Below, piece by piece: positions 3,525-3,758 of a stretch of DNA of 33,995 nt. The notes beneath the pieces were generated by a model. It was not told the DNA's origin, made no database searches, and saw only the letters and a list, made by a program, of their open reading frames with translations. This DNA is from Thermoanaerobaculia bacterium (GTDB lineage: Bacteria; Acidobacteriota; Thermoanaerobaculia; Multivoradales; JAIOJS01), in contig JAIOJS010000027.1 of assembly GCA_019911795.1 (NCBI GenBank), forward strand, positions 1 through 33,995, written 5' to 3'. The position numbers and the translations under genes are program-made. Position 1 is the stretch's first letter, and each line of letters opens with the position of its first letter.

Positions 3525-3554
3525 ACCCCGTATCCGGCGTGGTCTCGTTTACAG

Positions 3555-3641
3555 ATGTCGTTGATCGTCCGCGTTCTGGTGAATAGCCTGCCCAATAGCA
3601 ATTCGAATTCGAATTGCCAGGAGCCCGTGCGGACCGGTTAG
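3555..3641 (+). CDS. Asn-rich leader peptide of asnB (28 aa, MSLIVRVLVNSLPNSNSNSNCQEPVRTG)
   Basis: ATG at 3555, TAG at 3639-3641; five AAT codons at 3582, 3594, 3600, 3606 and 3612; lies in the asnB 5' leader directly before a terminator-like hairpin; no strong Shine-Dalgarno. Confidence 0.7.
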   Translation: MSLIVRVLVNSLPNSNSNSNCQEPVRTG

Positions 3642-3707
3642 ACGACTGAACCTCAGAACCATCCAGAGCCCGCACCGGTTTCCCGGCTGCGGGCTCTTTC
3701 TCTTTCT
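3567..3707 (+). promoter_or_regulatory. Putative asparagine-responsive transcription attenuator (1:2, 2:3 and 3:4 alternative hairpins)
   Basis: 1:2 = GTCCGCG(3567-3573)/GTGCGGAC(3627-3634, includes one G-U) plus CTGG(3576-3579)/CCAG(3617-3620); 2:3 = GAGCCCGTGCGG(3621-3632)/CCGCACCGGTTT(3670-3681) with one C-C mismatch; 3:4 = terminator 3665-3697. Confidence 0.7.
3665..3707 (+). terminator. Intrinsic terminator-like hairpin within the asnB leader
   Basis: AGAGCCCGCACCGG-TTTC-CCGG(C)TGCGGGCTCT: 14-bp stem with one bulge, followed by TTCTCTTTCT. Confidence 0.8.
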
Positions 3708-3758
3708 GGAGAGCTGAACCGCCGCCGGACCGCTGCGCCACCAGACAGGAGTTTCCCC

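Follow-up and report, generated by a model that had tools for sequence, protein, structure and literature searches.

What controls asparagine synthetase B (asnB) in a Thermoanaerobaculia bacterium (Acidobacteriota) whose gene is preceded by a short open reading frame (ORF) rich in asparagine codons? The question is raised by a 33,995-nucleotide stretch of contig JAIOJS010000027.1, referred to here as the window. The leader of this gene is very probably a ribosome-mediated transcription attenuator that senses charged tRNAAsn and thereby controls asnB. A broader proposition, which is reasonably likely and held less firmly, is that the locus represents an undescribed class of asparagine-codon attenuators controlling asnB in Lysobacterales (on leaderless mRNAs) and in several Acidobacteriota lineages, with multiple origins.

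The leader of asnB in the window

Between asnB and a divergent phospholipase-D-like gene is a 304-base gap that contains the leader ORF (Table 1). Five of its 28 codons specify Asn (codon starts at 3582, 3594, 3600, 3606, and 3612), and all five are AAT. This ORF had been proposed by a sequence-only reading of the DNA, and its coordinates proved exact. When this intergenic region was dinucleotide-shuffled, an ATG-initiated ORF with at least five Asn per 12 residues turned up in 0 of 20,000 cases, and one with at least four in 0 of 5,000. The gene placed from 3759 onward by the same reading is indeed asnB, as its product scores 787 bits against the asparagine synthase B equivalog NF006949 (cut-off 499).

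Table 1. Features of the asnB leader region, in window coordinates
Feature	Start	End	Strand	Remarks
Candidate -35 element	3519	3524	+	TTGACA; from sequence; likely -10 at about 3542-3548, weak match
Leader peptide ORF	3555	3641	+	28 codons, MSLIVRVLVNSLPNSNSNSNCQEPVRTG then stop; ATG 3555, TAG 3639-3641
Region 1	3557	3581	+	partner of region 2 (3624-3646) without a nearby ribosome; minimum-energy fold
Region 2	3620	3646	+	3620-3632 joins region 3 in the antiterminator; partner of region 1 at 3624-3646; contains leader stop codon
Region 3	3665	3682	+	terminator 5' arm 3665-3678; partner of region 2 at 3670-3682
Intrinsic terminator	3665	3706	+	hairpin 3665-3697 (regions 3 and 4), then T-rich tail TTCTCTTTC
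asnB	3759	5441	+	glutamine-hydrolysing asparagine synthetase B, the gene under putative control; SD-like GGAG at 3748-3751

An intrinsic terminator separates the ORF from the gene, in the window as in its relatives. The strong hairpin (3:4) anticipated at 3665-3697 appears in the predicted fold and is followed by TTCTCTTTCT. The T run of the tail is imperfect, a point against an attenuator, and a simple terminator consensus scan, too strict for this GC-rich region, listed no terminator at 3665-3697. The 156-base leader folds with an energy of -68.8 kcal/mol (z of -5.8 relative to shuffles), and the antiterminator segment at 3596-3684 has a z of -4.0.

Two further pairings compete with this hairpin. 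The 2:3 duplex, expected at 3621-3632 with 3670-3681, folds at 3620-3632 with 3670-3682; it is mutually exclusive with the terminator and stronger than dinucleotide shuffles (p = 0.008). The 1:2 pairing is also real, and only its position, first given as 3567-3579 with 3617-3634, had to be moved to 3557-3581 with 3624-3646, where the longest run is 3557-3573.

The effect of a translating ribosome was modelled by masking parts of the RNA during folding. With no ribosome, 1:2 forms first in the model and 3:4 next. When the A site is placed at the first Asn codon (3582), the RNA up to 3684 adopts 2:3 with twelve pairs, and 2:3 is also predicted with the A site at 3594 or 3606. With the A site at 3600 or 3612, region 1 stays free and 1:2 is favoured, a point against the model. 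The proposal that a ribosome stalled for Asn-tRNA covers region 1 and frees 2:3 to form is matched in folding at the first Asn codon. Since stalls at 3600 and 3612 favour 1:2, the window's most convincing sensor is this first codon; in terms of the model it would be the most plausible decision point, the later codons being incompletely explained. A ribosome on the stop codon leaves no 2:3 in the masked fold, in agreement with the earlier suggestion that a ribosome finishing the leader hides region 2, so that in folding calculations the position of the ribosome switches the structure. In masked folds of RNA that already includes region 4 the terminator wins every time, as in known attenuators, and timing therefore matters.

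A promoter is suggested by a TTGACA hexamer at a spacing that matches Lysobacterales, with a weak -10 element in the window; a promoter consensus scan of the window, too strict for the GC-rich region, found none. From the placement of these two elements (Table 1), transcription would start at about the leader ATG. The ATG is probably at or beside the transcription start, which amends the earlier reading of the window.

The proposed switch would operate as follows. The transcript would begin at or adjoining the leader ATG. Under ample Asn-tRNA, a ribosome would reach the stop codon at 3639 and hide region 2, whereupon region 3 would pair with region 4 and transcription would terminate ahead of asnB. 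Under scarce Asn-tRNA, the ribosome would stall in the Asn run, chiefly at the first codon, and block region 1; 2:3 would then pair and RNA polymerase would continue into asnB. If the leader were not translated, 1:2 plus 3:4 would form and transcription would stop.

Recurrence and covariation in other genomes

The 600 bases upstream of asnB were surveyed in 80 genome loci and in the order, class, and phylum of the window, and then in two Lysobacterales families. Judged by sequence, well over 100 further bacterial genomes, spread over two phyla, have the same arrangement before asnB. The conservation on which the sequence-only reading had staked its proposal is borne out, with Asn-run ORFs, terminators, and competing stems recurring in Lysobacteraceae, Rhodanobacteraceae, and several Acidobacteriota lineages.

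An ATG-initiated ORF with at least four Asn that ends just 5' of a terminator was found at 106 of the 109 sampled Lysobacteraceae loci (L111-L219). The leader was detected automatically (within 260 nt) at 19 of 30 Rhodanobacteraceae loci, and ten of the remaining eleven, read by eye, carry it further upstream with a longer spacer. Rhodanobacteraceae loci with a different type of asnB (about 65% identical) have the leader in 0 of 13 cases; in Lysobacterales the leader accompanies one asnB clade and is unseen before the other asnB type. Elsewhere in Pseudomonadota, no convincing Asn leader was found (54 of 399 genomes gave a match, and 49 loci were read or screened). Among these, two AT-rich loci (L302 and L332), each having five Asn within 12 residues, were set aside as likely products of chance.

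In part of the Rhodanobacteraceae, the interval from the leader terminator to asnB also holds a GGCCATCC-TGGCC palindrome with CTTTTC after it (L253, L255-L257, L260, L262, L267, and similar loci, with two copies in L257). This palindrome may represent a repeat or a further terminator.

The carriers in Acidobacteriota comprise the window, its genus-mate (L083), two loci from the same order (L095 and L098), two from the same class (L108 and L109), L225, and most sampled members of family f39, for which the carrier counts are lower bounds because the automatic filter missed L229 and L234. These two f39 loci are non-carriers according to the filter, yet show apparent Asn-run leaders on reading, in L234 perhaps with a TTG start. 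The weaker cases are L083 and L098, whose leaders have only two Asn codons each; a weak match at L224 was given no weight.

Mapped onto the asnB tree, the carriers imply no fewer than five changes on branches with good support, and a minimum of eleven. The window pair forms the sister of the group holding the Lysobacterales carriers (support 88), and the other carriers are scattered. This tree accommodates repeated origin as well as an ancient element lost many times. Two asnB genes that lack the leader, from an Acidobacteriota metagenome-assembled genome (MAG; L096, genome G021) and from Rhodococcus sp. RD6.2 (L065), fall inside the Lysobacterales clade, a placement that may reflect horizontal transfer or assembly contamination.

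The competing helices are conserved beyond their mere presence. Measured against shuffles, the 2:3 duplex comes out stronger at p ≤ 0.05 for 22 of the 34 representatives, including the window. Region 2 pairs more strongly with its own terminator arm than with arms swapped in from other loci (Lysobacterales, 0 of 20,000 permutations; Acidobacteriota, 1 of 20,000), a signal to which shared descent contributes part. In an alignment of Lysobacteraceae leaders (A1), 84% of cells are paired in 2:3 and 99% in 3:4, against at most 41% and 54% in slid controls. Two-sided changes affect four pairs in each of these helices, above both shuffles and slid controls, with the caveat that the sequences are related and the pair counts not independent. 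For the 1:2 helix, around the last Asn pair, the covariation score tops all shuffles and the slid controls; its count of two-sided changes is not above that of slid versions and only 72% of cells are paired in the main helix, because the register differs between subclades (for example, CTGCGCGCG with CGTGCGCGG versus GCGATTG with CAATCGC). The compensatory changes sought by the sequence-only reading are found in the 1:2, 2:3, and 3:4 helices. A helper hairpin over the leader stop codon, located in the antiterminator loop, covaries as well, its score lying above shuffles and slid controls (A1 columns 105-108 with 129-132) and has a counterpart at the same place in the window fold, at about 3635-3648. 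RNAalifold returned only a reduced structure from a mixed alignment since helix registers shift, and the named helices were therefore counted instead.

What the leader may sense

The leader bears the signature of a coding sequence. The distance from the ATG to region 2 takes five lengths among 59 dereplicated Lysobacteraceae leaders and is equal modulo 3 in all 59, and all three modulo-3 residues occur in the spacer from region 2 to the terminator of the same leaders. Asn accounts for 22% of codons in Lysobacteraceae leaders versus 1.9% in asnB, and the remaining peptide is poorly conserved save for Asn and pairing-related residues, as a leader peptide would be. Of 106 Lysobacterales leaders, 100 have their best -10 hexamer beginning 12-13 nt 5' of the ATG, and an SD-like sequence precedes the ORF in only 5. 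A -10 element abutting the ATG and the rarity of SD sequences point to probable translation of the leader from a leaderless mRNA in Lysobacterales.

Sensing of charged tRNAAsn by this route also depends on how Asn-tRNA is made. Asparaginyl-tRNA synthetase (AsnRS) is present above the family cut-off in the window genome (G000) and in 22 of 23 further genomes examined; the remaining one (G155) is a 3.4-Mb MAG that may be incomplete. The window genome has one AsnB above the strict threshold, and asnA was not found in it. GatB is absent from both Lysobacterales genomes tested, and G000 and its genus-mate have only partial C-terminal matches. Free asparagine is thus the likely source of Asn-tRNA, as such an attenuator needs. 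Full-length GatB does occur in some leader-bearing Acidobacteriota (G075 and G769; the f39 genomes have GatB), and the gene content of G075 and G769 suggests that their Asn-tRNA might come partly via transamidation.

Codon choice is distinctive in these leaders. In the window (3582-3614) and in Lysobacteraceae they strongly favour AAT, whereas asnB and the genomes favour AAC, a preference that slower decoding or RNA pairing may have selected.

The alternative that survives best, while still improbable, is that the attenuator senses another cue, such as the speed at which rare AAT codons are translated or an inhibitor that arrests ribosomes on the peptide. Such a cue would be in keeping with a window leader whose Asn codons are all AAT although the window uses AAC more often (42 AAT versus 134 AAC; a chance of ∼0.0008 for five in five) and with an AAT share of 51% in Lysobacteraceae leaders versus 10% in asnB. 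RNA structure could, however, explain part of this excess, and AAC makes up roughly half of the Asn codons in Lysobacteraceae leaders. The peptides also diverge between lineages, whereas the Asn run and the downstream asparagine synthetase persist, which favours charged tRNAAsn as the signal.

It is more improbable still that the hairpin acts as a constitutive terminator or ends a small RNA, with the Asn-rich ORF encoding a small protein of independent function. A constitutive terminator does not account for a region 2 that complements the terminator 5' arm and covaries with that same arm, and a small protein is hard to reconcile with the poor conservation of the peptide and with its confinement, in Lysobacterales, to a single asnB clade. 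Direct binding of tRNAAsn by a T-box or other RNA, the ORF being incidental, has a precedent in the asparagine genes of Firmicutes and a negligible probability here: the window and 11 relatives match no Rfam family at the gathering cut-off (T-box and the His, Leu, Thr, and Trp leaders included), the reading frame is maintained through changes in length, and the few bases at most that would lie 5' of the ORF offer no space for a stem I. A chance Asn-rich stretch and hairpin before asnB, to which the two Asn codons of the genus-mate lend some colour, is very improbable in view of the shuffled intergenic regions and the recurrence across two phyla.

Relation to known leader-peptide systems

The trp, his, leu, ilv, thr, and phe attenuators of Proteobacteria combine a leader peptide with a terminator and are represented in Rfam by His_leader, Leu_leader, Thr_leader, and Trp_leader. 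The asnB leader shares with them a short ORF with codons for the product amino acid, four regions with mutually exclusive pairings, a stop codon within region 2, and a terminator before a biosynthetic gene. It differs in its codon, its gene, its occurrence in Acidobacteriota, and a start codon that probably lies at the 5' extremity of the transcript. By its anatomy the attenuator belongs to the general trp/his/leu kind, with a new amino acid specificity. Leaderless leader-peptide attenuators are found in Actinobacteria; the asnB leader may resemble them in being translated from the first transcript bases without an SD sequence, and differs from them in phylum, amino acid, and gene. Asparagine genes of Firmicutes are under T-box control, which has the same input (the charging of tRNAAsn) and related target genes, but in which the RNA binds the tRNA directly and translation plays no part.

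A closer parallel in method is uORFC-8-2, which precedes cysS in Rhodobacterales. It is a cysteine uORF attenuator deduced, like the present one, from the conservation of a uORF that carries cognate codons in tandem, and differs by its amino acid, its tRNA-synthetase gene, and its restriction to a single order of Alphaproteobacteria (PMC8632094). Histidine leader peptides take the place of the T-boxes of other lineages before hisS/hisZ in Bacilli, which indicates that such sensing systems are exchangeable, in that case for histidine and in Firmicutes (PMC2965389).

The suspicion that an asparagine-codon attenuator might be undescribed is sustained by the lack of an Rfam match and by a full-text survey of 5.39 million open-access papers, in which no earlier description was found; its novelty is likely. 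Naville and Gautheret state that the attenuators predicted in Acidobacteria were almost all without assigned function (PMC2965389).

If the proposed mechanism is true, asparagine would join the amino acids that are sensed by a translating ribosome in attenuators, and the logic of attenuation would extend into Acidobacteriota. It would also offer an explanation of asnB control in Lysobacterales, a large and well-studied group of Gammaproteobacteria, and the scattered distribution on the asnB tree would provide a usable case for the gain or loss of leader-peptide control.
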